Part shown: positions 35,514 to 64,000 of the stretch, piece by piece | How positions within the stretch are numbered: the stretch's first letter is position 1 | Layout of the letters: the number at the start of each line of letters is the position of its first letter | Assembly (NCBI GenBank): GCA_030407315.1 | Contig: JALQPE010002386.1 | Location: 1-64,000 of the forward strand | Direction: 5' to 3' | Source: Asparagopsis taxiformis | Lineage: Eukaryota; Rhodophyta; Florideophyceae; Bonnemaisoniales; Bonnemaisoniaceae | DNA: 64,000 nucleotides | Notes under the pieces: generated by a model | The model's input: the letters and a program-made list of their open reading frames with translations, nothing else | Database searches by the model: none | What the model was told of the DNA's origin: nothing | Made by a program: the position numbers and the translations under genes

Positions 35514-35759
35514 CTCACTGTACAATGATCTTCAGGAAGTAGGATATTCTCTAAGCCTAGCACGGGAGAGAAAGATGGAAGCGTAGGCATGCAGAAGTAT
35601 AGAGGCAATAGTATGTGTAGACTATGGCAGTGGTAGAAAAGTATTTCATGCACGAAAAGGACTGGTAGAGTGACACTAGAGAAGTGATGCTTAGCAGGAA
35701 GGGATGTGGAGATGATGAAGGAGGACAACAGACATGAGATCGAGGGTTGAGACCAACGG

Positions 35760-38615: not shown

Positions 38616-38712
38616 CTTTTTCGCGGGGTCCGAAATCGTCTCCTTCTTCTTCCCGAGTGAGAAACATCAGTCCCTCTCGAATGCTTACAGAGAGGTTGGT
38701 TTACTATGGTTT

Positions 38713-39170: not shown

Positions 39171-39430
39171 CCGCCCAAGTTTATTCTTCCTACCCTAGAG
39201 CTCTACTGACGTTCCCAGTCGCAAGTATCGTACCACTTGAACACTATCACACAGCTAGAATTGTCACCTGTCCCTCATGGCGACCAGCGCCGAGCGAAGA
39301 GCGAAACAAGGGCCACAAGCACAGTCGCAAAAGTTCCATTCTCTCCATTGATCTCCCATATGACGATTCTACATAGGCGACGGTTTCACTCGATGCCGTC
39401 TTCGCAAGCTGCGTCTCTATCGTCTGAGAA
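39171..39430. other. Upstream region of captured LPMO-like gene
   Basis: Transition from repeats to non-repetitive sequence of different composition. It probably includes 5' flanking DNA captured with the gene. No other gene was seen. Confidence 0.4.
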
Positions 39431-44559: not shown

Positions 44560-45037
44560 ATCAGTAAAGCTCCCGCACAATTACTATAGTCGTATACTAC
44601 ACACCATTCCAATATTTATCTTCACATTAACACTATGCCCCTTATTTCCTCTCAAGTCCACTCCACCAGACAGTGTTGTGAACCAATGCACGGTACTACC
44701 CGCAGACAATACAATTTGCTATCTACACTTCTGTCTACAGATTTCCCCAGACAGTGCAGTAATACAATACAATGCACTGCCTCAGACAGTAAAATGTACT
44801 GTCTGCACATACTGTCTGGCGGCAACACTTCCGGACAGTAAAATTTACTGTTCTGGACAGTAAATTTTACTGTTTTTGGTACTGTCCAGATTTCGTGCCA
44901 GTTTATTGCTGCAGCAGTATTCTGAAATTTCCAGACAGTAAATTTTACTGTCTCCGCGCACTGTCTTGGCCAGACAGTAATTTTTACTGTCTCAGACAGT
45001 AAATTTACTGTCTTTTTCCATTCCCAACACCGTAGTG
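44560..45037 (+). repeat. Right-type CACTA terminus with palindromic ACAGTAAA/TTTACTGT array
   Basis: Ends in CAACACCGTAGTG, the reverse complement of the left terminus. The 478 bp match 8168-8660 in reverse. They are dense in palindromes of the AGACAGTAAATTTACTGTCT type. Confidence 0.9.
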
Positions 45038-45309
45038 AAATTAATGCCACACTTGGAGACAGTGATTTGCACTGTCTGGCAGACAGTACGGAACACTGTC
45101 TCCAGACAGTAAAAAACACTGTCTCACAGTACTGTCTGAGGCAGTGAATGGAGACAGTAAAAATTAATGATTTATTCAATAGTTGGATATGATGTAATTT
45201 ACTGTACTGGGCAGTGTTGGCGGATAGTGTTTTGTATTGGCCAAGGCAACATGGCCGGATAGTGAAATACGCTTCCTGGGACAATAGATGGAACCAACAC
45301 GGTGCACTG

Positions 45310-45903
45310 TCCTGGGCAGTACCTGGAGACAGTGATTTTCACTGTCCTGGGCAGTACCTGGAGACAGTGATTTTCACTGTCCTGGGCAGTACCTGGAGAC
45401 AGTGATTTTCACTGTCCTGGGCAGTACCTGGAGACAGTGATTTTCACTGTCCTGGGCAGTACCTGGAGACAGTGATTTTCACTGTCCTGGGCAGTACCTG
45501 TAGACAGTACTTTGTGCTGCCCTGGGCAGTACCTGTAGACAGTACTTTGTGCTGCCCTGGGCAGTACCTGTAGACAGTATTTCGTGCTGCCCTGGGCAGC
45601 ACCTGTAGACAGTATTTCGTGCTGCCCTGGGCAGCACCTGTAGACAGTATTTCGTGCTGCCCTGGGCAGCACCTGTAGACAGTATTTCGTGCTGCCCTGG
45701 GCAGTACCTGTAGACAGTACTTTGTGCTGCCCTGGGCAGCACCTGTAGACAGTACTTTGTGCTGCCCTGGGCAGCACCTGTAGACAGTACTTTGTGCTGC
45801 CCTGGGCAGCACCTGTAGACAGTACTTTGTGCTGCCCTGGGCAGCACCTGGAGACAGTATTTCGTGCTGCCCTGGGCAGCACCTGGAGACAGTAAAAGTA
45901 GTG
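45310..45903. repeat. 35-bp subterminal tandem repeat, 17 units
   Basis: The same unit as at 29391-29704 but with 17 copies. Sub-variants cluster in blocks (GATTTTCACTG units first, then CTTTGTGCTG and TTTCGTGCTG units), consistent with local duplication of groups of units. Confidence 0.93.
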
Positions 45904-47695
45904 TCCTGATATAGTAAAATTCGGTGTCTGGGAGTGGTGGATGAGATGGAGCGTCACGCTGTCGTGGGCATCTTTCTGGGGTAGAGGAAGGCAGTTCTAG
46001 CGCTATGAGGATGGGGCATGGACGGTATTCATATGGGAATGGACAGAATAGTACGGCTAGGAATTTTTATTTCGTAGTGACTATGAGATAGCGAGAGGTA
46101 TACGCGGTAGGATAGGTAGCAATCTAAGAGGGTGCGATATGGGAAGCTTCACTCTGGATTTGTTTATTTGCGCAGGCTACATTGCGAATAAACAATCCCT
46201 ATGTTAAAAATGCTACTACAACTAACTCTATTCCGACGAGTAAAACTAAAACTACTAGAAAAGTCTACAAATCTATCAACTGATTGAGCTGCATGAATAA
46301 GCTAGGAAATGAAGAGAAGAAGAAAAAATGATGTAGAGAAAGGAAACAAGTTAGTGACGTTGAATTGGAGAGGGAAATTGATGGTGATTAGGAGACTAAC
46401 GTACCTTAACAAATACCATTGCATCCCAAATTGAGATATGTACTCACAGGCAGAAAAGAAAATTAGTGGAGAAGTGGTAAGAGAGAAAGATAAATGAAAG
46501 TAGAAGTGGAACACTCACCGACTGGAAACCTGAGAAAGAGAAAACGAATAGAAAACTGGGTTAGTGGCGTGAGTTGTGGAAACGTACCATCATGGTTCAT
46601 ATCTGTCGGAGACAAAGCAACAACTTCGGCTCTGGAAGCAGTATTGATGATCTACAACTTACGCTTTGGAAGCAGTATAGATGATCTGTACTGCTTCCAC
46701 AGCCGGAGTTGTTGCTTTGTTTCCGACGGATATGAAGATGGAAACAGGGATCTCCAGAATCTGTTGTTTAAGTAGCACTCTGCGGGCGGAAATGACGTGT
46801 AGGAGAACAATAGAGTGATGAATTTGAAACGGAGCGGTGCGATGGGAGGCCCAGAAAAACGATACCTAGGGTGCGAATTACGCTTGGAAGCACATGACCT
46901 GGCAGAACAGGCGCAAAATTATTGTATCTTCTACCGCCTTCTCTAGTCTATAATGACGTCATCACTACAGAAATATAGGAAAAACACTAGCATATGGGGC
47001 CTACTGGAAAGGGGGAGGCGAGGAGTAGGAAAAATGGCGCACTTTCCTGGACGAGGAGTCCGCGCTTCCAGTGATGATTTGGACGGTATATATCGATGAC
47101 GTCATTGCATGCTCTGAGCACACTTGGCAGGCAGTCAAAGCGGGCCACGTGGATGTGGGCGGCTAGGAAACAGCAGTGTGGGAGAAATTTTATAATTTTC
47201 ATGTTGCAAGCGAGCAGTGAATCTGCATTGCAATATATAAATTTATGCTAATTTAAGATATCACACCGAGTACGATTCAACGAGAGATTGTGCTTTCAAC
47301 TTGTAAATAGGGCCGAAAATGGTAGAGTATACGAGTAGGAAGTACGTGTATGAGAAAATCAGATTCAGTATTAGTGCCTAGAGCATCACTGCGAAATAAA
47401 CGGCCGTTTTCCGGAAATGGATACATCTTGGCTGGGTTTGTGGTTAGGGGATGCGATACAAGATAGCAAAACGATGTTGAGTCCGGATGAAATAGCAATC
47501 AATGTGCATAAAGCAATGAGCATAGGGCAAAGCATTGTGGTGAACCAGTTCATTGGATCGAATGAAAGCCTGGAAAGGTTTCGTAACGGTTAAAAGTAGT
47601 AGTACTGTATTGAGATAGTAGTCATGTCATAGAAGTTTAGAGTTGTATTCTATGCAACAAAACTGAGCGAAGAAGAAAAGAACAAAAACATCAAG
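45904..47695. promoter_or_regulatory. Left arm and upstream region of the transposase gene
   Basis: Noncoding, matches 29705-31425. It holds the covarying hairpin. The last 60 bp before the ATG are A-rich (GAAGAAGAAAAGAACAAAAACATCAAG). No promoter element can be named with confidence. Confidence 0.5.
46596..46736. other. Long hairpin with 58-bp arms (copy 2)
   Basis: Arms 46596-46653 and 46679-46736. Compared with 30397-30537, three substitutions occur at paired positions on both arms. Confidence 0.85.
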
Positions 47696-50600
47696 ATGGC
47701 TCCGAGACGGACTCCTATTCGAAAGAAAACCACAAGTCGTAGGACAAAGGCGAGATTCGATTCACTCAATGTGGCCAGTCCCAGTAAACAGCTTCCTGGG
47801 AAACTGCAGGGAGAAATCCGCAGCAGTGATGCAGCCTGCATGAACAAAGAAATCCCGAGAGGTAATGAGCTACGACGTGAGTGTACCACAGATGACCTAT
47901 TGGAGTCCCCAATCCCTATGGGTGACACAATAGAAGGTTGTATTGATGTGTACAGCAACAACGATGAAGCTGGAAGTGACATCTACGTAGCATCGAGCAC
48001 GCTAATGGAATCGGAAGAAGCAACCGGACGAGGTTCTGATTCCATTTCAACTGGAGGCCCGATAGACCGAAATGCTGGGGATGAAGCATGTGGTGATTTC
48101 AAGGCATTACTACAATGGCCTGCGATGTATGGGGCTCTTCAGCTGAGTGGAACTCAAAGAATGACAAGAGCCCACTATGAAGGTACCCTGTTCGGAATGA
48201 ATTTCCGCAGAGATCCAAGTGAGCACGTCCCGTCGGACTCTGTGATGCGACAGAAGATACTACCATTCTTGAGGAAACACTGCTATGCAAAGAGCTGTGA
48301 CATCGAGTTTCCGATAGACCTTCGAAAGAGCGGAGCAAGAGCTGCACAGCATCGAGGTGCAGTAGGAACCCGTGGAACAACAGATGACAGAGACAATTGT
48401 GGAGGAATGGCGAAAGTTCGTATTGTACTCCCAAGCACATGGGCTCTGAAAGATGTCCAGACTCGACCAATCTTTAAAGCATTCCGCAGTGATGCGAACA
48501 ATCGAAGCTCGGAAGGAGAAAAATCAACCGCAGAGTGCAGCATTGAAGATTCGTTCATTGCAAAGTGCAGGAGGGGTGTTTTGAGCGACCCATTCGTTCG
48601 CACAGCAGTTGTTCCCATTGACAGCGATGGGAAAAAGGGTTTGAAGCACATTTATGTACCTGATGGAACAGCAATTCGAATCCGATGTCATCCAGGAGCT
48701 CGTCAGGTTGCCGTCATCGAAAGAGCAAAAGGGTTCAGGAAGAATGACAGAGATGGTGGGAAACCGAAGAGGAGAAGAGTGGCGGTTACGTCGTTGTGGG
48801 AACTTCATGCTAGGACCATAGTTACCTATGAGGCTCGACACGACGGTGAGCATGATGTGCATGTCGAAAAATATCTGCAGCCGCGAATGTCACATCTATT
48901 GGAATGGGAGAGGCAGCATGCTCTGCGAGCGATATCGCAATGTGTAATCGGAGCAGGAGCCAAGGGAAAAGGAACACGAGCTGGGGACGTGATAACCGTT
49001 CTATTACCAATTGGAATGGAAGAGGGTGATATTGTTCCACACGTCGTATTGGTGAACAGGTATTTGAAAGAGCAGGTCGGAGAAGCATCCACCATGTTAC
49101 TTTGCTTTTCACCGGGCGCGAGCTTTGCTGAAGCCAGAAACCCGCCCGATAGACTAGGAAGCCCCAACTATGAAGAAATTCGTGTTTCAGGGGTGTTCTC
49201 GGATGGTTTCGGAGACCACAGGTCGCAATGGCACCCAGCGTCTCCGCGAGAAGATGCACCATGTTGGGGAAAGCTGGAGGATGGTCGAAACTACTTTGTT
49301 TACCGATTTCTCCTTTACACGGATGACTTTGAACCATTCACAAGCAGGAAGGGAAGTTTTGGTGGATGCTATATGTTACCTCTCAATCTACCGCCTCGGA
49401 AAAGGGGAAGCTACCAAGCGGTTCGAGTGATTGGTTTGCCACCTCCGGGAGTGTCCACAAATTGTGTATTGCGATATATCGTTCAAGATATAGTGCGAGG
49501 AAGCACAGAGGGTTTCCCAACGAAAAATGCAGAGGGAGAAGATATTGTGGTATTTCTAGACCCAGTGGGGAGCATTGGAGACTATCCTGCAGTTTCACAT
49601 ACCCTGGATGTTCTTGGACACACATCAAACTCTCCGTGCCACATCTGCAGTTTCCGCAAATATGACCTGAGCAGTACTGGTGGCACGAAGAATGCATACA
49701 CTTCGGTAGTGAACGGGCAAACATCGACGCATGCCAGGAGCAAGTATCGGAATGCATCGACACGTAAGGATGCCACAGAAACCCAGCTTCGCACTCTCGG
49801 ACTGGCTGCAGAAGAAGGGGAAGATTTACCATTTCATGTCCTGAGCACTTCCTTGGAAGCAGTGCAGGAAGAAGTACCGAAGACGGAAAACGGAGTTTCA
49901 GTTGTCCCAGCAATTTTTGACCCGTACCGTTCCGCAGTGATAGCACCTGACCATCTATTGTCTGGACTGGCACAAGATGTACTGAACGCTTGTATTTCAG
50001 CTGCCAGCCCACGAATTCGAGAGGTAGCTGAATTGCAAATTCTGGGCGCTCTGAAGAAGTTCAGGATGGGAAGGCAGAACCGTTTATTTGGAACCAACAA
50101 TCTGCTTTCCATGAACATGAGTGACATATTCAGTGTGCTGCTGATAGCACCTATGGCATTCGAAAACGCAGCTCGAATGATGGATGGGAAAGGGGAAGGT
50201 CATCGTGAAAAATTTGATGGGGCCGTCAAACTAGTAGTGATGTTTCAGAAGCTGGTTTCGTGTATTAGTTTCATGCCCGTATGGTGGAAAGACGGTCCCA
50301 TGAAGTAGAGACGGCTGACGGAGAAGGTGGCAGGAATGAATACATTCTGGGAAGAACTGTAGACTACGTGGAGACGTTGAATGAGTATTGTCGGAAAGTG
50401 AAGGGAGCAGGAGCACATTTGGACAAGCCTAATGTTCATCGTCTTGTCGAGTTTTGTGTTCATACGCTTCCTGCCTACGGCTCTGTGAAGCACGTGCAGG
50501 AGCTTATATTCGAACGGATGCATCAGCCGCTGAAGAAAGGTGTGAGAATGTCCAATCACCAAAGCGAACAGCTTTCAGCGCTGGAATTAGTTCTTGCGGA

Positions 50601-51498
50601 TGACTGGCAGACGAGAGTGGCCATTGTTTTGCGCGAAATCGGCATGGAGCCACAACATTGGTCCTCGTCCGAATGCTCTCAAATGGTCAACGTTCTTTCA
50701 CAGGAGCTAGGGAGAGAAATAGATGTGGAAGACGAGGTAGTGAAAAACTGCTTCCAGGAACCGGTTCTCCAGCTTCTCTCCCAGCGTCGAGGAAAGATAT
50801 TGTCGGCGGATGGTGAAATTGTGACGTGGAGAGGGCATGGAGGTATATCTATTGACGAGGTCAAGGAGTACATGAATGGAAAATGTGATATGGCAGAGGG
50901 TGCTGTAGGTGTTTTCAAACGGTTCTTTACCGAAAGGTACGGAAGCGGAACAAGCGGGTGTGGAAAGTATGCCGAATGGGTGAGAAGAGTTTCTAGAAGC
51001 ACTACGACAGAGTGGGGAAGGAAAACAGTGCAGAGGTCTGGCTCTCTAGAATCAGGAGCTATCATCCATGCTGTTTGCCCTGAACAGATGAAATGTGAGG
51101 ATGGTGCAACTTCACAAGCGATTCTGTACCCGGCGTCTCGTCTCACATCAGAGATAATGCGGGGAAGAATTAATTATGAACCGCGGTTTTTTATTGTTCT
51201 AGCGTTCTTTATCCTGAGGAACGAGAGTGCGAGAGATGAGCAAGGTACAGCTTATGGAGTTTGCCTGGGTTTGCAAAAAACTGATGAAGGAGTGTTCAAG
51301 GTCGAAGAGAGGCGACGAACAGTAATTGTGGAGATGAGTGAGGGAGTCACTGAGGTGTTTGGTATGCACTATTGCAATGGGAGTGTATGCGAATATGATG
51401 AGAACATGAGGGAGGTAAGGCACGGACCCGGACTGCTGGAGGGTGGAGAGATATATGCACTATGTAGGCGAGACGGATTTCCACCGAGGGCTGCATGA
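47696..51498 (+). CDS. CACTA/EnSpm-like transposase, one frameshift
   Basis: A frame from ATG 47696 to 50308 (870 residues) continues in another register from about 50281 to 51498 (about 405 residues). The N-terminus is basic (RRTPIRKKTTSRRTK). Near residues 619-652 VVFLDPVGSIGDYPAVSHTL is followed by SNSPCHICSF. An acidic-residue block, a DYPA-type turn and a CxxC pair resemble the catalytic region of TNP2-type (Transposase_21) CACTA enzymes. The second part has LIFERMHQPLKK, a candidate for the third catalytic acid. The enzyme would cut the CACTA-type ends and bind the subterminal repeats. AATAAA follows the stop at about 51511. The shift near 50280 may be a sequence error, decay or an unrecognised splice. 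Kinship with KDZ/Plavaka transposases is an alternative. Confidence 0.72.
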
Positions 51499-51618
51499 TT
51501 TTTAGGGAAGAATAAAATGAATAACCAGATGCATCACATATGAATTGTACACTCTAGGGCGGTGGTGGATTGGTGCAAAGTAGTGGGGAGAGGATCTGAG
51601 AGGATGGAGGGAGGTATG

Positions 51619-52012
51619 CTTACAGCAAAGTCATCGTTACGATGACTTTGCTGTAAGAAAACGTTTCCATTACAGTGGCCAAGAATGTTTTACCGGGTAA
51701 AAAAATCGTGGCAGCTGTAATGATTTGCTTTCTTACAGCAAAGTCATCGTAACGATGACTTTGCTGTAAGGAACCGTTTCCTTGCAGTGGCCGAAGAATT
51801 TTTTACCGGGTAAAAAATCAGCAAGAAATTTTACCGGGTAAAAAAATTGTGGCCGCTGTAATGATTTGCTGTAAGAAAACGTTTCATTACAGCGGCCACA
51901 ATTTTTTACCCGGTAAAGAAATCATGGCTGCTGTAATGTTTCTTTTCTTACAGCAAAGTCATCGTAACGATGACTTTGCTGTAAGAAAACGTTTCATTAC
52001 AGCAAATTCATC
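51619..52012. repeat. Palindrome cluster 6 downstream of transposase
   Basis: Three copies of the 37-bp palindrome and TTTACCSGGTAAA-centred units, with mixed CCGGG/CCCGG centres. Confidence 0.92.
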
Positions 52013-52684
52013 GATAGTTAAGGTTAAGTAACCAACTTTAGGATGTCCAGAGGACCTGCTCGTTGTAAGGAATAAGGAATATTGATCAACTGACGAAGAG
52101 GAAGCATTTTGAATCGACTAGGGTAGGAACGCAATGAGATTTGGTATGCAAGAAAACTGAATCGCAGTAGTGAATAGGTAGTTGAAATGAATTCATATTG
52201 ATGTTCTTTGGTGTATTGTCCATTGGAGCACATTGAAAACCATTTATATGATCACCGTTTAAATAGTCTATGAATCCTTTGCAGCCGAGTACGCCAATAG
52301 GAAGAAATTCAAGCAGTGGCCTGCACGGGAACCGTTTATTTGTGAGTAGCAAAAGTTAGTGTAGAAATGAATTTTTCAGACTTGTAGGAGAGGTGGATCG
52401 TAGTAAATGTATAAAACTCACGTAGAATCGATTGATAGGAATCAATGGTACGGAAGAAGAAGCGAGGTGGAGAGTGTGGATGAAATAGGTTGTTGGAATA
52501 TGAATGATAATTGACGTGGTGAGGTAAACGGGTTCGATTGCATTATATGCGCTAGAGGTACATACTATTAGGTGTAGATTGATGGAAAGGGCTAAACGCT
52601 TTGTGGAGGTATCAGGATCAGGTAGAGTCAGAGGTGCTGAGCGGGTGCAGCGTAAGGTTCATCAGGACTGAAGGTAGGTAGGGA
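52013..52684. other. Intergenic region upstream of dioxygenase 1, no gene seen
   Basis: An AT-rich 670-bp stretch without repeats of note. It probably contains the promoter of the gene at 52685. Confidence 0.45.
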
Positions 52685-55600
52685 ATGTCTTGTCCGGACA
52701 GTATAAGAGAGGAAGCTGAGAGACGGGAAGCGCACTCGGAGGTACCACAATTGTGGATTTCATCGTCTACACAACATTTGAACAGAGAACCGATTGAACG
52801 AACTGAGATTGCAGGGATTACAATGGGAGACAATAGTATCATGAATACTACAGCGGAGAAGAGCAATTCTCCTTCTGCTGAAGAGAAAAGCATCACTATT
52901 GCTCAGTACAGCTCTTCTAAAGTGCAAGTTGATCCTCGCAAAGTGAAATTTCCGACAGTGACCTCCCGTTTGGTGCGACCGGGTCGTGTAAACGAACTGG
53001 CCAGCATTTTCATGGATAGAGGTTTCTCTACCACTGGAACTATGATTACAGTCTGCAAAATGGAAGATAACGAAGGAGACGAGTTTTACTGCATCGATGG
53101 CTCTCATCGCATAGCTGCTCTGCAACTATGCCTGGAGAAGTACTCAGGAAAGAACAGGGATTCCTTGGAATTGGTTTGGGTACAACAGTTGATTGCGCCG
53201 AACGGGCGTCTAATTTTCGATGCGCTGGAGGTTCTGAAACTGTCTCTCGAAGCCAATATACAAACTCACGATGTCGCTTCTGTGAGCATTGCCGACAATG
53301 TCTGTGCGGTCATAGAGTTTCTCAGGTTTTCCAACCAGATGGATCTTCCTGTTGTCCGGCTTATTCCTATTCTGAAAGAAGTGAGCTATATTCTGCCGTC
53401 CGACAGGAACCGTTCGGAGAACTCGTATAGGCAGTACATCAACATTGCGAAGGGGTTCAATCGCACAGACAGCGTTGCTTTCGTGTACTGGAGCTCTATC
53501 CCTAGCGTTTACAATGCTTTGGATAGGAACAGAGAAATCGAGGATGCAAGAACCGAGGGAAGAGATCCGGACTTTTCTCGAATTGACTCTGCCGATATGT
53601 ACGGGTGCGTGCTCGATCTTGTCAATAACGCAATATTCCGCAATGGCACGGACGGACGCGGGACGCGCGATAAGGAGTGGTTCCAGTGGTTTGTGCTCGA
53701 GATGACAGCGTCGTGGACAAGGATGAGGAGGAAGAGAGGACTTGTCAGAAATATCGGAAGCGGAAGTCCGTTCACGATGCGCACTTGGCTACTGGCTCTG
53801 TTGGCCATCTATGATATGGCAGAGGTCGTCCGCAAGTGGTTGAACTCTGCAACGATGGAGGAATTCGTGCGAACGGATTTGGCAGCAGAAAACGCGAAGG
53901 AGGTCGGGGATAATGATCATCGCATTGGAGAGCGCATTGTATTCGTCCTTGTCGACTTTCATGACGACGTGGTAGACAGTAGCAGTCTGAGAACCAAGAA
54001 CGGGATGTTTACAAACAGTTTTTACGACAAACTGGAATATGCTACCGGGACAAAGGCAATGCAGGAGACGAAAGCGGAGGAGGAGAGGGAACGGAATCGC
54101 ATGACCCCCGGAGAAATAGAAAAAGCACTTGTTGATGGCGCCAAAGCAGAAGACGAAGAAGCACCTACTGCCGCAGAACAGGGAAATAATTCTACAGAGA
54201 AGGAAACTGTGGAAACTTCTGGTCCTGTTCAAGCAGAAGAAGGAGTATCTGCCGAAGCCCAAGTAGAGCAGGAAGTTTCTGCTGTTGTGGAGGAAGAACA
54301 GGAAATTACTCCAAATGTGGTGGCTGAAGAAGTGATTCCTGCTGTCGCGACGAAAGCAATAGAAGAGGCACCTCTGAGCACCCCGAAAGAAGCAGAAGAC
54401 CGTCCTGCCGCAGCAAAAGAGGGAGGACAGGAACGTCCTGCCACGCGTCTTGCAGCAGCTGAGAAGAGGGAAGCAGAACGTCTTGCTGTTCTCCAAAAAG
54501 AACAGGAACGTCTTTCAGCTTCAAGGGCAGAGCGGGAAAGTCGTGCCAGGGATAATTCGCCGGGAAGGATTGTCAGAGAAGATCTTCCTCAGGGAAGGAA
54601 ACAAAGCGGCGATACGCAAAGTCTGGATATCAACTTGGACAATAGTGGTCGCATGGACATAGACACGCCTGGACAACAAGCTGGAGATGCGCAGAACCGC
54701 TCTGTGATATTGAAACTTCGAATCAGGACACCAGAAACTTACAGCACTAGCCCGGCCGAAGTGGACAAGGAGAATTCGGGAAGAAGCAGGAGTTCTGGTG
54801 GAAGCGGCGATGAAAACGAGTCCAGGTTGGATAAGAAGCGAAGAAGGGAAGATACTAGCGCGAAGTTTTCTGAGCCCAATACGCCGGATGACAACATTGA
54901 GATTGGGCCTCCCCGGGAAAAGAAGAGTAGAGTCAATGCAAGAAAACGAACGACTGGAGAAGAAGCACCACTCTTCACTGACGAGCAAGAAAACTCCCTT
55001 CCAGACCGCACATTCGCAGAGGACATACCTGAGAAGCTGCCTTTATGCGTTCCTTCCAACTCGAGAATGAAGTATTATATCACAGAAGAAGACATTGATA
55101 CAATCCGGACGGAGATAATGGAAGCAGCTGCAGGCTACTCTACTTTGGTATGTCCCCTCGGTTCTTGTGAAAGCCAACAATACTTCAGCTACCAGAGAAG
55201 AATGATCGACGAGCTTGGTTACGTGGTGTTGCAAGACATTTTCTCTTCTACTACAGTGGGAGCAGCTACGCACGAGTTATTCACACAGATGGCCAGCACA
55301 TTCCAAGGTACTACAAGTGGCTCAAGTGCAAGTCAGAAGAACCCGTGGAAACCACTTCGACCGAAAGACAGCACTGGTGTATTCAAGACGGACCGGAAAA
55401 GCATCTGCGATGACCTTGAGCAAGAAAGCGCGCGGCAGTACAGGAACAAGCTGATTCTGGAGCTAGGTAAGGCGATTTGTGCGGAGAACCTGAAGCTCGG
55501 GTTTGGAAGAGAAGAAGCGGTGGTCTTTCCAGAAACGGGTCTTCGTCTGATTTTGACCGCAGAAGGTAGTCAGGAGCAACTTATGCATACCGATGTTCCC

Positions 55601-55945
55601 GTCCGTGAGGGAACTGGAACTGGTCCTCTCAACTCGCCATCATATTTCATGATGGCTGCTGGTGCGGATGGGTTCATCATTCGTATCGCCAAGTTCAGCC
55701 ATGTGTGCCTAAGTCATCCAGCGAAAGACAAGTACCGCGTGCCAGTGACGAACGTGCGCATCCCACCGTATTCCCTGCTTGTATGCCGAACGGACGTGTA
55801 TCACGGAGGAATGGGATTCGCGGAGGGTCGTTCTTCGGTGAGGTACCAGCATCCTATCCGGTCCCATCTATCACTGCGAACTTCCAGGGAGAAGTTGCTA
55901 CAGCCTCCCTTCAATGTCAACTACTGGGAGCGTTTAGATATCTGA
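52685..55945 (+). CDS. ParB-like domain / 2-oxoglutarate-Fe(II) dioxygenase fusion, paralogue 1 (intact)
   Basis: An intact 1086-residue frame. Residues about 95-150 form a ParB-like module (VRPGRVNELASIFMDRGF, then CIDGSHRIAAL with GSHR near 139-142). A helical region with ASVSIADNVCAVIEFLRF follows, a pattern shared with dioxygenase 2 and faintly with the methyltransferase protein. A long glutamate/alanine-rich linker with helical EKREAERLAVLQKEQERL and basic patches (DKKRRRED, REKKSRVNARKR) suggests nuclear location. The C-terminal 280 residues hold the catalytic barrel: H968-T-D970 (HxD), H1040 in DVYHGGMGF and arginines in VRYQHPIRSHL. Such enzymes hydroxylate or oxidatively demethylate substrates. 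With a DNA methyltransferase in the same element, DNA or histone marks are plausible substrates, but that is inference. An alternative start is ATG 52823. Confidence 0.85.
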   Translation: MSCPDSIREEAERREAHSEVPQLWISSSTQHLNREPIERTEIAGITMGDNSIMNTTAEKSNSPSAEEKSITIAQYSSSKVQVDPRKVKFPTVTSRLVRPGRVNELASIFMDRGFSTTGTMITVCKMEDNEGDEFYCIDGSHRIAALQLCLEKYSGKNRDSLELVWVQQLIAPNGRLIFDALEVLKLSLEANIQTHDVASVSIADNVCAVIEFLRFSNQMDLPVVRLIPILKEVSYILPSDRNRSENSYRQYINIAKGFNRTDSVAFVYWSSIPSVYNALDRNREIEDARTEGRDPDFSRIDSADMYGCVLDLVNNAIFRNGTDGRGTRDKEWFQWFVLEMTASWTRMRRKRGLVRNIGSGSPFTMRTWLLALLAIYDMAEVVRKWLNSATMEEFVRTDLAAENAKEVGDNDHRIGERIVFVLVDFHDDVVDSSSLRTKNGMFTNSFYDKLEYATGTKAMQETKAEEERERNRMTPGEIEKALVDGAKAEDEEAPTAAEQGNNSTEKETVETSGPVQAEEGVSAEAQVEQEVSAVVEEEQEITPNVVAEEVIPAVATKAIEEAPLSTPKEAEDRPAAAKEGGQERPATRLAAAEKREAERLAVLQKEQERLSASRAERESRARDNSPGRIVREDLPQGRKQSGDTQSLDINLDNSGRMDIDTPGQQAGDAQNRSVILKLRIRTPETYSTSPAEVDKENSGRSRSSGGSGDENESRLDKKRRREDTSAKFSEPNTPDDNIEIGPPREKKSRVNARKRTTGEEAPLFTDEQENSLPDRTFAEDIPEKLPLCVPSNSRMKYYITEEDIDTIRTEIMEAAAGYSTLVCPLGSCESQQYFSYQRRMIDELGYVVLQDIFSSTTVGAATHELFTQMASTFQGTTSGSSASQKNPWKPLRPKDSTGVFKTDRKSICDDLEQESARQYRNKLILELGKAICAENLKLGFGREEAVVFPETGLRLILTAEGSQEQLMHTDVPVREGTGTGPLNSPSYFMMAAGADGFIIRIAKFSHVCLSHPAKDKYRVPVTNVRIPPYSLLVCRTDVYHGGMGFAEGRSSVRYQHPIRSHLSLRTSREKLLQPPFNVNYWERLDI

Positions 55946-56165
55946 TGAAATTAGTTCTTAATAGCATTCTATGGCAGGCATCAAGGCCGCCTTCAAGTAA
56001 ACGATGAAAGTTAGGCTAGTACATGACGTTTGCGTATGTAGACGGGTCAGGAGATATACAATACTCAATTTAATATGAGAAGGGGAGGAAACTATGGTGG
56101 GCACTACTAGAATAGAACAAGGTAATATCGCAGTCGTCTTTGGTTGCAACATTGAGGTGAGGAAG
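55946..56165. other. Intergenic region, no gene seen
   Basis: Short 3' flank of dioxygenase 1 before palindrome cluster 7. No feature was recognised. Confidence 0.4.
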
Positions 56166-56402
56166 GCTTACAGATGATGCAGTTTCGCTGGGGTGCTGAC
56201 AGCAAAGTCATCGTTACGATGACTTTGCTGTAAGAAATCAAATCATTACAGCGGCCACAATTTTTTACCGGGTAAAAAATTCTTGCTGATTTTTTACCCG
56301 GTAAAATTTTCTCACCACTGTAATCAAACCTTTCCTTACAGCAAAGTCATCGTAACGATGACTTTGCTGTAAGCATCCCGGGTAAACGGCTTCGGCTGTA
56401 AG
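56166..56402. repeat. Palindrome cluster 7 downstream of dioxygenase 1
   Basis: Two copies of the 37-bp palindrome flank a pair of TTTACCSGGTAAA-centred units. It ends in GGTAAACGGCTTCGGCTGTAAG, the inverted outer motif. Confidence 0.92.
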
Positions 56403-56943
56403 CGGTTGGGAGTTTCGTCCGTCTCCCACCCTGGGAAGGGTGAGAAGGGAAGTGTGGAGCCGGGAACATCGTACAACGATGGTTTGGACGACTGTTGACG
56501 GCTCTGGGGAGCACTCTGCGTCGTGCAAGCCTGGTTTGCGCTGGCTGCACTACCTGGTATTGAACGGTTCTGTGCGCAAAGTTTACTCATGAAGGAGGTA
56601 GGGTGTTGTGTACCACACCAACCATAGTTACTAACATTTGCAGTGTACTCTAGTGATGTAATTATTATTCTAGTTTCTAACTATACAATGATATTAAGTA
56701 AGTCAGATGTGCACAGAGCATGGTCTAAGCCTAGCACGGTAGAGAAAGATGGAAGAAAGATTGAAGGGTAGGCATGCAGAGGTATGAAGGCAGCAGTATG
56801 TGTAGACTATGGCAGTGGTAAGAAAATATTTCATGCACCAAAGGGTGGGCAGAGTGACATTAGAGAGGTGGTGTGTAGGGGGAAGGTAGGTGGAGATGAT
56901 GAAGGAGGACAACAGAAACGAGAGCGAGGGTTGAGACCAACGG
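56403..56943. repeat. Intergenic dispersed repeat between dioxygenases 1 and 2
   Basis: Part of the same 0.9-1.0-kb composite unit as at 35.5-37.7 kb (shared GCACTCTGCGTCGTGC, CTAAGCCTAGCACGG, GGCATGCAG). No gene was found. Confidence 0.7.
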
Positions 56944-57268
56944 CTTACAGATGGAGCAGTTTACCAGGGATGCTTACAGCAAAGTCATCGTTACGATGAC
57001 TTTGCTGTAAGGAAAGGTTTCATTACAGTGGCCATGATTTCTTTACCCGGTAAAAAAATTCCTGGCCGCTGTAATGAAAACGTTTTCTTACAGCAAAGTC
57101 ATCGTAACGATGACTTTGCTGTCAGGAAACAAAACATTACAGTGGCCATGATTTCTTTACCCGGTAAAAAAATTCCTGGCCTCTGTAATGAAACGTTTCC
57201 TTACAGCAAAGTCATCGTAACGATGGCTTTGCTGTAAGGATCCTTGGTAAACTGCCTGAGCTGTAATT
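56944..57268. repeat. Palindrome cluster 8 upstream of dioxygenase 2
   Basis: Three copies of the 37-bp palindrome and two CATTACAG...CTGTAATG palindromes centred on TTTACCCGGTAAA. Confidence 0.92.
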
Positions 57269-57471
57269 GTCGTACAACGAAAAGTGATGTGGAAGGTTCG
57301 GATTGGTCAACCGCTGAATATCATTACCAGGGTGTATACTAATAGGAATATGTCAGTTCTCTAAGTTTCGCCTATCTTACTCAGCTTACGCAGCAAAACA
57401 GCTTGTCGTTCAGATCTTCTTCTCTCTTTCTCAATCTTTCACTCTTCGTTTGTCAATCACTCACCAAAGCA
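57269..57471 (+). promoter_or_regulatory. Promoter and pyrimidine-rich leader of dioxygenase 2
   Basis: The 80 bp before ATG 57472 are strongly CT-rich (TCTTCTTCTCTCTTTCTCAATC), and TATACTAATAGG lies about 135 bp upstream. This is consistent with a promoter and leader; the start site is not determined. Confidence 0.45.
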
Positions 57472-60400
57472 ATGGCTCAACAATCCCCCAACGCTTTCGA
57501 CCGCCAGGTGCGCTCTGCCAGCCGCCGTGACAACGATTCTCCCACTCCTTCTCCCTCTCCTTCTCCCTCTCCTTCTCCTTCTCTGGCCCCCCCTGTCCCC
57601 ATGGACGTTTGCGAAGCTGCTGCAGCGCTGACCCAGCTCAGCCCAGCACCTAAGCCCGTCCCCTCCCCCCCTTCCGCTTCCGATCCCGCGGTTGTCCCGA
57701 CAATCGACGCTGGCGTTCCCGCAACTCCGCTTCCGGCTCAATCTGCCGAAGCGGCGCCAGCCGTCGAGGGATCTGGTGCTCCTCTGCCTAGCTCGCCTGC
57801 TCCGGACATGATCATCGCGTCCGGCAGCGACTTGGCAGAGGATGCGGAGAAGGTCGATGATCACAACGCTCGTGACATCGTACCGAACAAGCCTCTCCGC
57901 AGCACCAGGCTGGCCTACCCTGGCACAGTGCCCATCCCGGTGGATGTGGACTACGACATAAGTCCGGAGAGCTGCCGAAACATTCCAGTCTTCATTTCCC
58001 CCTGGATGTTTCTCCTCCGGCAGTCGTGTCCAGGGTGGTCAGGCCGCATCGCGTTGATGAGTTGAAGAAAACGTTTCTCACTCAGGGATTTTCCGTGATT
58101 GCTTCACGCGTGTCCGTCTGCGAGGTGATTGATTCCAATGCAAAAGTACGACTGCAATATGTCGATGGATCTCACCGAGTGACCGCGTTGAAGGCCATTC
58201 TCGAGTCGGCTGGACCTGCTCCTGCGAAGGACAGTCCAGAGTGGGAGGAGTTTGTCAAGTCTGACATCTACCGTCGCTTTGGAACTATTCCAGTCGACTT
58301 TCTCCTCCCACCGACTCGGCTTGGCCGGGATGTCTTCTGCTCCGAAGAAGTACTCCCGCTTTCACGGCTGATGAACTTCCACACCCACAATGTCAGCGAG
58401 GTAACAGTTGCTGACAATGTGTGCTCTGTGATGGAGTTCATCAATATCCACCGCCTGGGAAAGAAGAAGATCGAGCCGACCGTTCAATACATTAAAGAAC
58501 GGAAAGCGCTGAGCTGGATTCGTCCGAGACAGCTCATGCGCTACGTCTCGATCGCGCGAGGGTTCAAGACCATTGAAAGCCCTGCTTTCAAATACTGGTC
58601 GAGCATCCCGAACAGGCCGGAGTTCGTGCAGTTTCTCTTCGACGAGGATCTGGCTGGGTGTACGGTGAACTTGTTGTTCAATGGGTCGTTCAGGAGTGCT
58701 CCGGATGTGCAGAAGTGTTTCATCCTGGAGATGACGGCGCGCTACACTTGTAGCCGTCGGTCGGCCGGGCTGAAACCGTACTCGGTTGGTACCATTGGGC
58801 AGGAATGGATTGCTGGTTTGTTGGAAATCTTCGGGTACGTGAAGGAGGTGGCCGAGTACTGGAACGTGTCGGATGTGTTGAGGATGCTGGATGGGTCAAT
58901 TCCCAGCGGGGTGACCCGAGCAAGAGCTTCGACATTCGCTCGCGCGTTGTCGAAGTTCTTGCTCAGATGGTCCCCAAGAAGGGGTGCTGGGCAGACTTCC
59001 GTCCCAAGGAAGGCCCCCCCGATGGTTACAGTTACGAAAAATATTTTCCCCGTAAGAAGTCTGTCTTCGGGAAGGACGCCAGGAAAATGCTCCTGCGCGT
59101 CACTGGGTACCGCGACATGATTATGCGGAAACGCTTTCACGCGATGTACCCAGACATCCCACATGCTGCGCTCCCAGCCACATGTGGTGATGATGCCCCC
59201 ATCCCTTCCTCTTCCAATTCCTTGCCCATCCCTTCATCCTCCATTCCTTTGCCCCCACCACCTCAACTGGAATCTTCCAGCAATTCCGAGGTTGCCCCTG
59301 TTCCTGTCTCTACCCCTGCCGTGTCGGCATCCTCCCCTGCGGTGACCCCGGTCAAGCCGACTGCGCGTGGTCCCCAGGATGGCAGCGAACGCTCTGGTCC
59401 AGTTTCCCACGCCGGGACTGGTACCCCCAACCGTCCTGTCCAAGCCGCGCAGGAGCAGGTCTCACCGGCTTCGCAGCCTGAGCCTGCGACTCCGGCTGCC
59501 GAGCAGCACCCTGCTGCTCCGGCCCCCGCTGTCGAAGCTTCCCGTTCTGCATCTGCTAGCAGTTCGGGAAGCTCCAGCGATGACAGTTTCGTCCCTTCAC
59601 CATCCGGTGGGGTTGGACAGAAGACGGTTGCGAGGATTTCGACGGAGGGCCCTACTCCCGAGAATGTGGTCGAGGGCAGCAGTGCGAAGGGCGGTGCAGA
59701 TCCTGACGAAGATGTCATTGAAGTCAGTGATTCTGCACCGCCCGGAGTGGAAACTTCTGGGAGGAAAGTGATGCCCAGAAGGAGTACCCGCCTGCAAGCG
59801 AGTCGTTCCGGTCGTGGTGGAACGGCGGGTGGTGCTGTGGAGGTCGTCGAGCTGGAGAGCGCCCCCGAGGATGCGGGTGAAAACTCCATCCTCGGGAAGC
59901 GTAACTTGGAAGCGCTTCTGCGACGCCCGAGCCTTCTACCAAAAAGAGAAGGCTCGGTGAGACTTCATCAAAGTCGTCGTCAAAGAAATCCAAGTCGGCT
60001 TCCCGAGGTCGCTCTCGGGAGCCGGTTCTCCAGTTCGACGACGCCCAGGAGAATCCCATTCCCGACAGTATCGTCGATGAGAATGTGGCCGCCGTTCTCC
60101 CCAGCGCAATTGCGTCTGGCAGCCGGATGAAGTACTATATGGAAAGTACGACGGTGGAGACGGTTCGGGCGGAAATGAGGGCGGCAGCATTCCAGGCAGC
60201 TGCATCGCCGGGTGCTGAGGATACGGTGGTGGACAGGTACTTTGCGGTGAAGAAGGCATTGTTGGAAAACTTGGGGGTTATTGTTATGGAAGGCCTGTTG
60301 GCATCGTCCACGGCTGGTAATGCGACGCATGAGTTGTTCGGTCACTTCGCTAGGCAGTTCCCGCTGGTTGAGGAGGTTGAAAAACCCTCCCAGCAGTCTG

Positions 60401-61115
60401 ATTCTAACGATGACGACAGGGAGCCACAGGACGAGCCGCCAGCTTTCGCAAAGCCCGGCTTCGATCCTTCGCCGTGGCAGTTCATCCACAACGTGGGTGA
60501 TGCGAAGGACCGCATCGATGGTGGTCGTGGGCGCCTCTCTCTGCCGCGGCGTGAGTTGTGCGACAAGTTGGAGGAGGGGAATTTGGAGATGTATAAGAAC
60601 AAGTTGGTGGCAGAGCTTGCTCTTGGTGTTTGTGCGGAGTTCTTGAAGTTGGGAATGGAGGGTGAGGATCCTGTCTTCTTCCCGAAGACAGGATTGCGGC
60701 TGCTTCTTACAGCAGATGGGGCTGCGGACCAGGATGGGCACACGGACTTCAAGGTATCGACGAATAGTGTTGGAAGTCCTACCAGTCTCCATCATATTTC
60801 ATGATGTCGAGCGGAGCCGATGGGTTCTCTATAGTAGCTGCCCCTTATAGTCATGTATGCCTGGCCAATCCGGACGCCGATATGTGGAAGGTTCCCCCTC
60901 TCATCTTTTGGGTGCCACCCTATTCCGTATTGGTTGGTCGCGGTGACCTTTACCATTACGGGGTCGGCTTCAGCCGAGGAGATCTTCCTGCAGGCGAGAA
61001 GTTAGTCTATGGCCTGCCCACGCGCGGCCACATCTACTTGAAGACGGAGAAGGACGTCCTCACGGACCACATCCACACCGTCGAATATTACAAGTACGAT
61101 AGGAGCAATAGATAG
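57472..61115 (+). pseudogene. ParB-like / 2-oxoglutarate-Fe(II) dioxygenase, paralogue 2, four small indels
   Basis: From ATG 57472 the protein opens with a low-complexity serine/proline region (an SPSPSPSPSPS run). The ParB-like module follows (VVRPHRVDELKKTFLTQGF, YVDGSHRVTALKAIL), then the ADNVCSVMEF helical segment, a serine/proline-rich linker with KK/RR patches and the dioxygenase barrel (GHTD; LYHYGVGF; GLPTRGHIYL). Four register changes, near 57990, 58910, 59905 and 60770, divide it. At the last three, copy A or the chimeric copy has one base more, so an intact ancestor is clear. Either this copy is decaying or the assembly has single-base errors. It converges on the methyltransferase-SET gene and is about 30 percent longer at the N-terminus than paralogue 1. 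Confidence 0.82.
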
Positions 61116-61590
61116 CATATCAGAAGTATTAAAACCTATACTACTGTTCCCTGCTATAAAGTTCTGTCTTTCTCATCTCAACATTGTTACCTTAGCCCAT
61201 TTTTCAGTTCTCATCTATACATCTGTCCTTCATCTCATAGTTTAGTGCTACTCAGCAGATTGCTTGCTACTTTTTAATATTAGTCTACAACGTTGTATGA
61301 TTTTACTAGCTAGGCCGTAGGGGGAGACTAGTTTCAACCCTTGACAACGCGCAGATTTCGACTACGAGAGCCGTCACTGTGATAAATTATTGGTAGAATT
61401 TTCGTCTATCTTCCCACCTACACTAGGCTACCTATATATATACAGGGTATAACCTGAACAGAGACCACGTGAGGTAAAATACTCCTGAGAGCTGCTCACA
61501 GCCGTACAGACCTTTGCTGAGCAATTTACCCGACTTCACACTTCGCTTCTCACCTTTACCAAGATGGGAGAAGGACGAAACTCCCTGCTG
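61116..61590. other. 3' flank of dioxygenase 2, no gene seen
   Basis: Inverted copy of 16920-17393, including TATATATA near 61438. Polypyrimidine after the stop. No gene was found. Confidence 0.5.
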
Positions 61591-61938
61591 CTTACAGCCG
61601 AAGCCGTTTACCAGGGTTCCTTACAGCAAAGTCATCGTAACGATGACTTTGCTGTAAGGAACCGTTTCCTTGCAGTGGCCAAGAATTTTTTACCGGGTAA
61701 AAAATCAGCAAGAAATTTACCGGGTAAAAAAATTGTGGCCGCTGTAATGATTTGCTTTCTTACAGCAAAGTCATCGTACGATGACTTTGCTGTAAGAAAA
61801 CGTTTCATTACAGCGGCCACAATTTTTTTACCCGGTAAAGAAATCATGGCTGCTGTAATGATTTGTTTTCTTACAGCAAAGTCATCGTAACGATGACTTT
61901 GCTGTCAGCATCCCCGGTAAACGGCCCGCACTGTAATG
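61591..61938. repeat. Palindrome cluster 9 between convergent genes
   Basis: Inverted sister of cluster 1. Three palindromes, one with a shortened centre (TCGTACGA), and CATTACAG...CTGTAATG units. Outer motifs GCCGAAGCCGTTTACC and GGTAAACGGC are inverted. Confidence 0.93.
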
Positions 61939-62211
61939 GGGTGACTGCTTCTCCTACATCGCTCTCTTACTGGTGTTCTACATGCTGCGTTGCTACACAA
62001 TTTCGCACTCACATCTTTCTAGTTTCTCTCCTTTCGTATCCATAGGTATAGCAGTAGAAAAGTGGATAGTTTGCACTCCAGGCCGCAGATGCCTTCCTGC
62101 AGTCATGTCACGATTGTTGTAGTGTAGTCTATAATATCTAGCGCTCTTGGAAGATGATGCACAGTCTATTGTCTCTGTCAATGCGTGTTTACTCAAATCT
62201 ATCAAAGTAGC
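61939..62211. other. 3' flank of methyltransferase-SET gene
   Basis: Matches in reverse 16219-16492 almost exactly. No gene. Confidence 0.5.
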
Positions 62212-64000
62212 TCAGTTAGCTGGCCAATATTTTCTACCATAGTCAGCAAATATCTCCTCATCAGCTTCAACGTCTCTGGTCAGAACGACCTTGACAGCAT
62301 GGGGATTCTTGATATTTGAAGCAAAGTCCGGTTTGTCTATGGCATCGCCTTGTCGAAACTCGGCTGACTGTGTTCGACTCACCTCGGTCGCTTTCTCCGT
62401 TCCGTCAATGACCCGACAATCATTGAGGTAGCTGGTACAATTATAGACCGCTGGAACGAGCCAGACCTTCCGAACAGGTGCACCCCTCCCTATGTACGTG
62501 GTTTCCAATTCCATGTTGTAGTCCTGGAACCTCTCTCCTGTGCACCCAAATCCTTCCGGGCCGTACATCACTGATCTCTGCGGTTCCGAGTCTCGAATCT
62601 TCGCATAGAAAATCGTCCCGTTGTACCAGCCAATGACCGTCCCCTTCTTCAGTTTCTTCGCCGCGAATACGCCAAACCCACCACCTCTTACCTCCGATTG
62701 CGAAACATAGACACCGTAGAATGCGGCATCAGCAGCCAGAATCGCGTCCGGGTCTATGCTCCAAAACGAGTGCATGTCCTCGGCCGGCCACTGGTCCATA
62801 GGCACCCCGCTCAATCTGTGAAGCATAGACCCGTCCTTCTTCATTGACGCAACGAACACAAGCAGATGGTTCGGCAATGCTGTCACAGCAGGTAAACCTT
62901 CTGGTGCATCTGAGATGTGCTTCTGACGAAGCCTTGGAGCTTTTCCTGTGACCGGTACCGACTCGTCCCCAAGAATACTCTCCACCTCACGCTGCAAGAT
63001 CCCCCCATATCGCCCGGCTTTCACCTCACTGACGAAAGCATGCAGTATCCACTCCTGCGATGCATCGTGGCACCTTTTTTCCTTCTCACACCCAATGAAC
63101 CGACGATACGTACCATCCCTCAACGTCATACACGCTATGGCTGTGCTGTATGTTCCCGAGAAGAAATCCATCACGATATCGTTCTGCTTCGAAAATCGTT
63201 CCAGAAGCTCACGAAGAGTGGTCAACGCCTTCTGCTCATGGCGCAGTCGGTTGTTCTGCCCATCGTATTGAGCTTCACCAGCCGACAACCTCGGAACGTT
63301 GTCAATCGCGTTGGTGAACCCAGGGTGCCTCGATATGTCCGGATTGTGCAACCTGTAATCCACCATATCGTATGCAGCCATACCCTTCCCCCGCTTATAC
63401 GCATGGATAACGAAATCGTGCATATTATGCAGTGTGCACGTTTTCGTCGATGGATTGGACGTAAAGCTGTGTGGTCGGCGAGATAGCACGACTGGAACAC
63501 TGTCCACAATCATCTTGCCAGGCTCGGCATTTCTGATTGCATCCATCCATGCCACGAGTTGGCGCACGCTGGAATAGATTAGAGCATGACCGCCAGGCCG
63601 AAGAACTCGAACTATTTCACACGCAACACTCGCCAACTCTTCCGGCTCCAGAATATCGTACTCCGAGTTTTCTCTGCCGCCTTCCCGCCTCGTGTTGAAT
63701 GGAGGATCAGTGAGCACAAGCTGAACACTGTCCTCCAACACGCCATCTTCCAGGAAACTAATTTTGTCCTCCACCTCTTTGGCTACATCAGTGGCGTCAC
63801 AATTCACAGTGTGAATGTAACGCCCCATCACAGCTTCCAGCTTGGTGACATATTCTGGCTTGGTTTCCTTTCCGACGTCAACGAGCGGTGCTTCTGTAGG
63901 CGATACAGTGTCAACCTCCATAGCGTCATCCTCGGCCGCACCTTCTCTTGTTGCTGTTTCGCTAGCAACCGCCGCATTATCGTCCTCTCCACCACCGCGC
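62212..64000 (-). CDS. ParB / DNA methyltransferase / SET protein, second copy (5' end outside window)
   Basis: The visible 596 residues cover the linker, the methyltransferase (LTDPPFN, DFFSGTYSTA) and the SET domain (GGGFGVFAAKKL, YLNDCR, DYGRKYW) and end at the same stop as the copy at 12751-16218. About eleven residues differ, for example M to V before TDPPF and R to C in the FIGREKEK block, giving about 98 percent identity. The frame stays open to the window edge (63922-64000 match 14440-14515), so the ParB half should lie just outside. The high identity indicates recent transposition or duplication. Confidence 0.88.
   Translation of the reverse strand, partial: RGGGEDDNAAVASETATREGAAEDDAMEVDTVSPTEAPLVDVGKETKPEYVTKLEAVMGRYIHTVNCDATDVAKEVEDKISFLEDGVLEDSVQLVLTDPPFNTRREGGRENSEYDILEPEELASVACEIVRVLRPGGHALIYSSVRQLVAWMDAIRNAEPGKMIVDSVPVVLSRRPHSFTSNPSTKTCTLHNMHDFVIHAYKRGKGMAAYDMVDYRLHNPDISRHPGFTNAIDNVPRLSAGEAQYDGQNNRLRHEQKALTTLRELLERFSKQNDIVMDFFSGTYSTAIACMTLRDGTYRRFIGCEKEKRCHDASQEWILHAFVSEVKAGRYGGILQREVESILGDESVPVTGKAPRLRQKHISDAPEGLPAVTALPNHLLVFVASMKKDGSMLHRLSGVPMDQWPAEDMHSFWSIDPDAILAADAAFYGVYVSQSEVRGGGFGVFAAKKLKKGTVIGWYNGTIFYAKIRDSEPQRSVMYGPEGFGCTGERFQDYNMELETTYIGRGAPVRKVWLVPAVYNCTSYLNDCRVIDGTEKATEVSRTQSAEFRQGDAIDKPDFASNIKNPHAVKVVLTRDVEADEEIFADYGRKYWPAN

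Follow-up and report, generated by a model that had tools for sequence, protein, structure and literature searches.

Here we describe a giant CACTA-type transposon of the red alga Asparagopsis taxiformis, 25–26.6 kb long and recently amplified, which encodes a transposase, two oxygenase-like proteins (diox1 and diox2), a DNA methyltransferase fused to a SET domain, and two further proteins, X and Y. The window analyzed is a transposon-rich stretch of 64,000 nucleotides, positions 1–64000 of contig C2260. By sequence comparison, the three cargo proteins (diox1, diox2 and the methyltransferase-SET protein) begin with ParB/sulfiredoxin-like modules, and a palindrome is repeated beside their genes. 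A like module on writer and oxidases, together with such a palindrome, suggests an address and its reader. Our preferred explanation, to which we give somewhat less than an even chance, is that the ParB-like modules direct the DNA/protein methyltransferase and the two oxidases to palindromes of the element itself, probably as a defence against silencing; we infer both the targeting and the chemistry.

The CACTA-type assignment of the original prediction was borne out by the ends of the element. The assembly searched comprised 141,494,207 bases in 3156 contigs, in which the terminal inverted repeat (TIR) CACTACGGTGTTG, starting with CACTA, was found 922+944 times, compared with 1+0 for a control pattern read backwards; in the window it lies at 8168(+), 29028(+), 35456(+), and 45037(-). 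From the list of 42 diox1 places, six that lie on longer contigs were sampled; one ran off its contig, and the other five are TIR-bounded copies of 25,292, 26,630, 26,406, 25,264, and 26,511 bp. All five full copies carry CACTACGGTGTTG at both ends, their flanks differ from copy to copy, and one of them ends at a contig end. Long blocks of the other copies are 99.4–99.8% identical to copy C74, and the first 800 bp, which include a tandem array, are only 95–97% identical to C74 in three copies. A KDZ transposase was ruled out, as the ends are CACTA.

Three of the five TIR-bounded copies (C1830b, C337, and C632) have all six intronless open reading frames (ORFs) open: transposase, 1267 amino acids (aa) (+); diox1, 1086 aa (+); diox2, 1215 aa (+); methyltransferase-SET, 1155 aa (-); X, 453 aa (+); and Y, 508 aa (-). 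The coding share of C632 is 64%. Copy C1830a has a broken diox2, and C74 has broken or short frames for diox2, methyltransferase-SET, and Y. In samples biased towards intact copies, all 42 diox1 places scored (the best of 5047 candidates) and all 40 methyltransferase-SET places scored (the best of 3826) were open and about 100% identical. Judged by the number of TIRs, about 930 elements could be present, and a control 25-mer near the right end occurs 216+242 times exactly (458) and 273+312 times with at most two mismatches (585); we therefore speak of several hundred copies. A 2-bp target-site match was seen in three of nine usable end pairs (chance 1/16 each, p 0.015), with no consistent 3-bp match; six pairs with one common flank (0/6 matching) and two copies at contig ends were left out. 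The cited passages of PMC12730594 give a target-site duplication of 3 bp for EnSpm and of 2–5 bp across the wider clade.

The original prediction had treated 45038–64000 as one element with all three cargo proteins. The interval is indeed part of one element, but it belongs to a damaged copy (copy C) that runs on to contig position 76154, and the N-terminus of the third cargo protein falls outside it, since that gene runs to contig position 65679; a full copy of the gene stands at 12751–16215, in another unit of the window (copy A). Copy C has a frame-broken transposase and diox2, and open diox1, methyltransferase-SET, and X. Its features are as follows.

45038-64000 and beyond (+): copy C, damaged, 99.4% identical to C632 over the longest block
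45307-45895: tandem array of a 35-bp unit, 16.8 units, before the transposase
47696-51498 (+): transposase gene, in two overlapping frames, 47696-50308 and 50281-51498
51612-52003: palindrome array between transposase and diox1, exact cores at 51626, 51739, and 51954
52685-55945 (+): diox1, 1086 aa, intact; ParB-like module at about residues 75-290, low-complexity middle, C-terminal oxygenase-like domain
55586-55594 (HTD), 55802-55804 (distal His), 55859-55861 (Arg) (+): putative Fe(II)/2-oxoglutarate (2OG) residues of diox1
56166-57266: palindrome arrays between diox1 and diox2, cores at 56203, 56342, 56980, 57094, and 57207 (1 mismatch)
57472-61115 (+): diox2, frame-broken in this copy; an open 1215-aa ORF in three of the five TIR-bounded copies
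61590-61926: palindrome array between diox2 and methyltransferase-SET, cores at 61627 and 61877
62212-65679 (-): methyltransferase-SET; the C-terminal part, N6_N4_Mtase and then SET, lies in the window (to 64000) and the ParB-like module outside it

The relation of the N-termini to ParB was evaluated by profile searches. The family phrog_1033, named 'ParB-like partition protein' in PHROG, matched three of four oxidase N-termini, with a best expectation value (E) of 2.1e-5 and one of 0.0084 for diox1. The methyltransferase-SET protein matched phrog_1033 at 0.0032 and phrog_4272 at 1.7e-5, and a profile built from the oxidase N-termini scored 13.8 bits against it, compared with 4.8 bits for the best of 1000 shuffles. 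Sub-threshold Pfam rows for the oxidase N-termini included GmrSD_N, DndB, and ParBc_2, as well as SNRNP27 and DUF7636. When the oxidase profile was compared with the Protein Data Bank (PDB), seven weak matches (E 0.19–2.1) were obtained; those at the DGxHR region included SbnI (E 0.27), 1vk1, and sulfiredoxin-1 (E 2.1), all three of the ParB/sulfiredoxin fold, and unrelated proteins such as HindIII were also among them. In pairwise comparison, the methyltransferase-SET module bore hardly any likeness to that of diox1 (E 1.3) and was closer to an outside relative, P0004 (3e-4), which indicates that the 'shared module' denotes the same fold family and not a recent shared copy.

The main palindrome, CTTACAGCAAAGTCATCGTWACGATGACTTTGCTGTAAG, is 39 bp long and near-perfect, and lies in the spacers between transposase and diox1, diox1 and diox2, and diox2 and the methyltransferase gene. 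C632 contains 36 palindromes with arms of at least 9, compared with none in each of five letter shuffles. Exact cores, CAAAGTCATCGTWACGATGACTTTG, number 11, 16, 16, 12, and 17 in the five full copies, or 16–17 per intact copy, and none of these 72 cores falls in an ORF of at least 350 aa. Across the assembly the core was found 8457 times exactly (control 0) and 9943 times with at most two mismatches. This amounts to about 14–18 cores per right end, with right ends counted through the control 25-mer, as expected if the cores belong to the element family. The window holds 27 core sites with at most three mismatches, 23 of them exact.

Other palindromes accompany the main one. A second palindrome, ATTTTTTACCGGGTAAAAAAT, alternates with it; GTGCTGCCCTGGGCAGCAC palindromes occupy the place of the pre-transposase array in C632, C1830b, and C74; and subterminal short repeats of the ACAGTAAA/TTTACTGT type, also palindromic, occur at both element ends and do not have the sequence of the palindromes that lie beside the ParB-protein genes. 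The C632 spacers beside genes X and Y are without the main palindrome. Between diox1 and diox2, at element position 11430–11504 of C632, a 75-bp perfect palindrome (arms of 37 and a 1-base centre) surrounds the 39-bp one; C74 and C1830b have it as well.

The fusion of a DNA methyltransferase to a SET domain was confirmed: the part of the protein within the window (62215–63999, minus strand) matched PF01555 at E 6.6e-17 and PF00856 at E 1.1e-6, and the whole copy A protein matched them at 6.8e-14 and 3.6e-5. The SET score (PF00856) was 29.4 bits for copy C and 24.5 bits for copy A, with a cut-off of 22.4. The methyltransferase has DPPF at 658 and FSGT at 840, which is the order of the beta class. 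From the DPPF motif and this order, our guess is that the mark would more likely be N6-methyladenine than N4-methylcytosine. The closest PDB sequences to the methyltransferase are DpnA-type adenine methyltransferases (E 0.0019). Matches at E of at most 0.01 were found in 78 of 50,697 phage records, none of which spans 80% of the protein. The 12 listed among these are 24–25% identical over the methyltransferase part, with 10 annotated as adenine-specific methyltransferase and with the SET and remaining parts absent from all 12. A protein search with the N-terminus of the methyltransferase-SET protein returned only itself among the 7999 candidates scored.

The two proteins predicted to be dioxygenases proved to be a related pair with an HxD...H...R motif, and the term 'dioxygenase' comes from this motif and a weak fold similarity. 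A search with the diox1 C-terminus yielded, besides diox1 itself, two proteins at E of at most 0.1 out of 3243 candidates, P0004 (1167 aa) and P0005 (851 aa). Both have a ParB-like start and a C-terminus as in diox1, to which they are 23–29% identical. The HxD, the distal H in [GT]D[LV]xH, and the RxH are invariant in diox1, diox2, P0004, and P0005 (four of four spanning rows), with a spacing that looks typical. On this basis, and on that of a structural model considered below, the C-termini of diox1 and diox2 are probably Fe(II)/2OG oxygenases of no named family. The suggested TET/JBP affinity was rejected: in Pfam, none of the four proteins (diox1, diox2, P0004, and P0005) matched any oxygenase model, TET/JBP included. 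A search with words from the first 500 residues of diox1 returned only diox1 among the 8000 candidates scored, and no relatives were found in viral contigs for P0003, P0002, or P0004, or in genome contigs for P0005. P0004 carries a cysteine/histidine-rich, zinc-finger-looking stretch at about residues 550–612, between its ParB-like and oxygenase-like parts. Introns in diox2 were excluded, since the gene is a single open frame of 1215 aa in three copies; where it is broken, the cause may be decay or indels of the assembly.

The transposase is one 1267-aa frame in all five TIR-bounded copies. It has GDxP at residue 628 and then C(2)C at 648, with no H(3-4)H after C(2)C by pattern, and no Pfam match. 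Genes X and Y are without clear family. Selective constraint was evaluated by scoring codon changes against C632 in 6–14 sequences per gene, with C632 among them and one place repeated a few times; matches covering less than 90% of a gene were dropped. The six genes together show 50 synonymous and 45 nonsynonymous distinct codon changes, compared with a no-selection expectation of about 1:2.75 (p 7e-8). Synonymous to nonsynonymous counts are 4:2 for the transposase, 1:3 for diox1, 19:12 for diox2, 14:24 for methyltransferase-SET, and 6:2 each for X and Y, and the synonymous excess of diox2 alone has a p of 9e-5.

According to our preferred explanation, the ParB-like module would load on the palindromes in the way that ParB loads on parS, and might spread over the element; a helical segment after the module may be a DNA-binding helix-turn-helix. 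The tethered methyltransferase would then write an amino-methyl mark on the element's DNA, the SET domain would methylate a chromatin protein, and the two oxygenases would remove or convert host-placed marks on the element, or else reset those that the element itself has set. Each copy, gene-less derivatives that have palindromes included, would thereby be held in a self-set state, active or 'self', which would amount to anti-silencing in cis and in trans. A fuller version strikes us as doubtful: that phage- or bacterial-derived ParB-like modules recognise the 16–17 identical palindromes of each intact element and deliver a DNA-and-histone methyltransferase together with two demethylating oxygenases, so that several hundred copies, gene-less ones included, would have one self-imposed chromatin identity. 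The original prediction of a writer and putative removers with a common ParB-like N-terminus in one mobile element is supported, and candidate cis sites, as arrays of one long palindrome, stand in the spacers near these genes.

A number of results weigh against this explanation. In the same PHROG library, no ParB family was found for whole diox1 or for the diox2 piece; the ParB models of Pfam did not reach their curated cut-offs (ParBc_2 at 0.12 in one of four members); and the top Pfam row for the diox1 module, itself under the cut-off, was the unrelated SNRNP27, over 18 residues. The predicted ParB-like start of all three cargo proteins thus has the PHROG matches (phrog_1033 foremost) and the profile-shuffle test on its side and the whole-protein scans and Pfam cut-offs against it. 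As DGxHR also occurs in ParB-fold kinases and in sulfiredoxin, the module might be an enzyme rather than a DNA clamp. The SET domain keeps its DYG end and has NC in the position where NH is the usual motif. Taken alone, diox1 shows no synonymous excess, and that of methyltransferase-SET is not significant (p 0.098). Among core sites within two mismatches, 85% are exact, compared with 78% for a control stretch of the element; genome-wide palindrome conservation was accordingly ruled out as proof of selection, the control stretch being nearly as intact. Finally, an AlphaFold model of the C-terminal oxygenase-like domain, built from five rows, had a mean predicted local distance difference test score (pLDDT) of 42.6, which is low confidence, and a model of full-length diox1 (mean pLDDT 37.5) was too poor to use; Foldseek with the domain model gave 131 matches at E of at most 10 and none at E of at most 0.001.

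These results bear on four other explanations. The palindromes may be unrelated to the ParB-like modules and act as hairpins in RNA, where transcripts would be terminated or processed, as a feed for small-RNA silencing, or as foldback elements in spacers, with the ParB-like proteins finding DNA otherwise or acting genome-wide. The position of the palindromes outside long ORFs, which is terminator-like, their alternation with ATTTTTTACCGGGTAAAAAAT, and a genome-wide conservation barely above the control are consistent with this view. However, several palindromes per spacer exceed the need of a terminator, palindromes are kept in a derivative part that lacks all six genes, and the C632 spacers next to X and Y have none, and we consider it fairly unlikely. 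Alternatively, the cargo could control transposition rather than silencing, with the methyltransferase marking ends or new copies and the oxygenases clearing the mark to time excision; Dam methylation times the movement of Tn10 and Tn5. Subterminal palindromes at both ends and a recent burst of near-identical copies agree with such a role, but the palindromes by the ParB-protein genes are unlike the subterminal ones in sequence, and we consider this role unlikely.

We regard the two remaining alternatives as improbable. If the ParB-like domain were an enzyme, such as a ParB/sulfiredoxin-fold kinase or a nucleotide hydrolase, the cargo would modify proteins or metabolites and not the element's DNA. 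The presence of SbnI and sulfiredoxin-1 among the seven weak PDB matches, at DGxHR, speaks for an enzyme; the stronger match to a ParB-like phage family and the fusion to a DNA methyltransferase point instead to DNA. It is equally improbable that the C-terminal domain of diox1 and diox2 is not an Fe(II)/2OG oxygenase. This would agree with the low-confidence model, the lack of Pfam matches, and a PDB profile search with the domain that also returned none, but HxD-H-R is invariant in four proteins, and the Foldseek ranking, although not significant, places Fe(II)/2OG enzymes at ranks 1–4 (HalB, Hydrox, a BesD homologue, and Tpa1). Lower ranks include ALKBH3, PHD2, and JmjC proteins, with unrelated folds mixed in from rank 5.

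Petroll 2025 reportedly describes giant elements of the red alga Bostrychia moritziana. Together with the EnSpm elements of Chondrus crispus, for which the cited part of PMC6431247 gives 16–20 kb and 4–5 ORFs, these giant EnSpm/Plavaka elements resemble the Asparagopsis element in being oversized and CACTA-like, in having several accessory genes, and in coming from red algae; one of them may be of the same lineage. As far as the cited text of PMC12477816 goes, Sola1-1_Ec32 of Ectocarpus is a giant algal DNA transposon with an accessory protein that combines a ParB-like domain with an N4C/N6A DNA methyltransferase, and Iyer 2011 and Petroll 2025 (Bostrychia) are cited there on ParB-methyltransferase proteins. 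The writer half of the original prediction, the ParB-methyltransferase cargo of algal giant transposons, is therefore already in print as a proposal. The likeness to Sola1-1_Ec32 is one of domain architecture, a ParB-like domain and an N4C/N6A methyltransferase in one transposon protein; in contrast to what is described there, the present element has a SET fusion, two ParB-plus-oxygenase proteins, candidate cis sites, and a CACTA-like rather than a Sola-1 character. Neither the ParB-oxygenases nor the SET fusion nor the palindrome arrays turned up in the literature searched, which was chiefly open-access, although the Bostrychia study may contain some of them; of the reports found there, that on the algal ParB-methyltransferase proteins is the only one with a bearing on the present system.

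The cited sections of PMC12730594 describe fungal DNA transposons, EnSpm/Plavaka types included, that carry TET/JBP genes and are read as escaping silencing. Like those, the Asparagopsis element is a DNA transposon with an HxD oxygenase; unlike in those, the oxygenase is without a TET/JBP match, begins with a ParB-like module, and is accompanied by a methyltransferase. Anti-silencing would be the likeliest benefit here too, as those sections argue for TET-carrying fungal transposons. One sentence there names SET-carrying HarbingerS and MuDR elements of Phytophthora, which have a transposon-encoded SET methyltransferase in common with the present element; it says nothing of a DNA methyltransferase fusion. 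Phage adenine-specific methyltransferases and phage ParB-like proteins are the best outside matches of the two domains concerned.

By analogy, a ParB-like module with arrays of palindromic sites recalls ParB-parS partition. Partition ParB proteins are CTP-dependent clamps that bind parS-like sites and have a ParA partner. Family scans of the proteins of the six ORFs gave no ParA match, and the module has DGxHR instead of the partition-type motif. If our preferred explanation is correct, a eukaryotic selfish element would use bacterial-style addressing of chromatin enzymes, with setting, clearing, and addressing in one 26-kb unit, and it would become directly testable how giant transposons bring their accessory enzymes to their own DNA. 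With a DNA methyltransferase and a SET domain in one chain, the DNA mark and the protein mark would also be physically linked. Because the family is young and has many members, its activity may still be observable.

Self-comparison of the window revealed three related units, namely copy A, a deletion derivative (B/D), and copy C. Besides copy C, their features are as follows.

8168-19571 (-): copy A, inverted and cut at its inner side, right TIR at 8168
9173-10597 (+): gene Y of copy A
10879-12279 (-): gene X of copy A
12751-16215 (+): methyltransferase-SET of copy A, complete
17394-19571 (-): diox2 remnant of copy A
29028-45037 (+): deletion derivative B/D, 16.0 kb, left TIR 29028, internal TIR 35456, right TIR 45037
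to 31400: region before the transposase, in B/D
31615-34035: diox2 remnant of B/D, followed by palindrome arrays

Copy C starts at element position 92, abutting the right TIR of B/D at 45037, and its left TIR is therefore missing; only that end was lost. It matches C632 up to element position 26310 (contig 70056), and the element part 23354–26310 is present in triplicate, in tandem (contig 67100–76154), which may be a duplication or a (long-read) assembly error. Loss of the right end was ruled out by an exact right TIR at contig 76154.

By tblastn at E of at most 1e-3, the B/D part at 35456–45037 has lost all six protein genes; it retains the right end (94.8% over 499 bp) together with eight exact palindrome cores. 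The ungapped flanks of the B/D core sites are 60–88% alike to those of C632 sites, and three copy C sites are also low (66–84%). The flank CCAGCCCTTATA before the internal TIR at 35456 recurs in all six other places read, and the B/D composite therefore seems to move as a single unit. TIR pairs about 8 kb apart were rejected as independent elements because this flank is common, on one side, to all six pairs read. The sole listed ORF of at least 230 aa in the gene-less part of B/D, at 40839–41996, has Sel1 repeats (PF08238, E 2.4e-7), a start weakly like that of gene X (E 0.05), and possibly a chromatin-reader-like domain.

Outside the three units, two coding regions of long terminal repeat retrotransposons, at 299–7512 and 21139–25358, contain reverse transcriptase/integrase-like ORFs, as judged by eye from the translations; the second lies past the cut inner end of copy A. 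Between the units, at 26657–28574, direct repeats of about 230–800 bp that are 86–94% identical form a group of their own.

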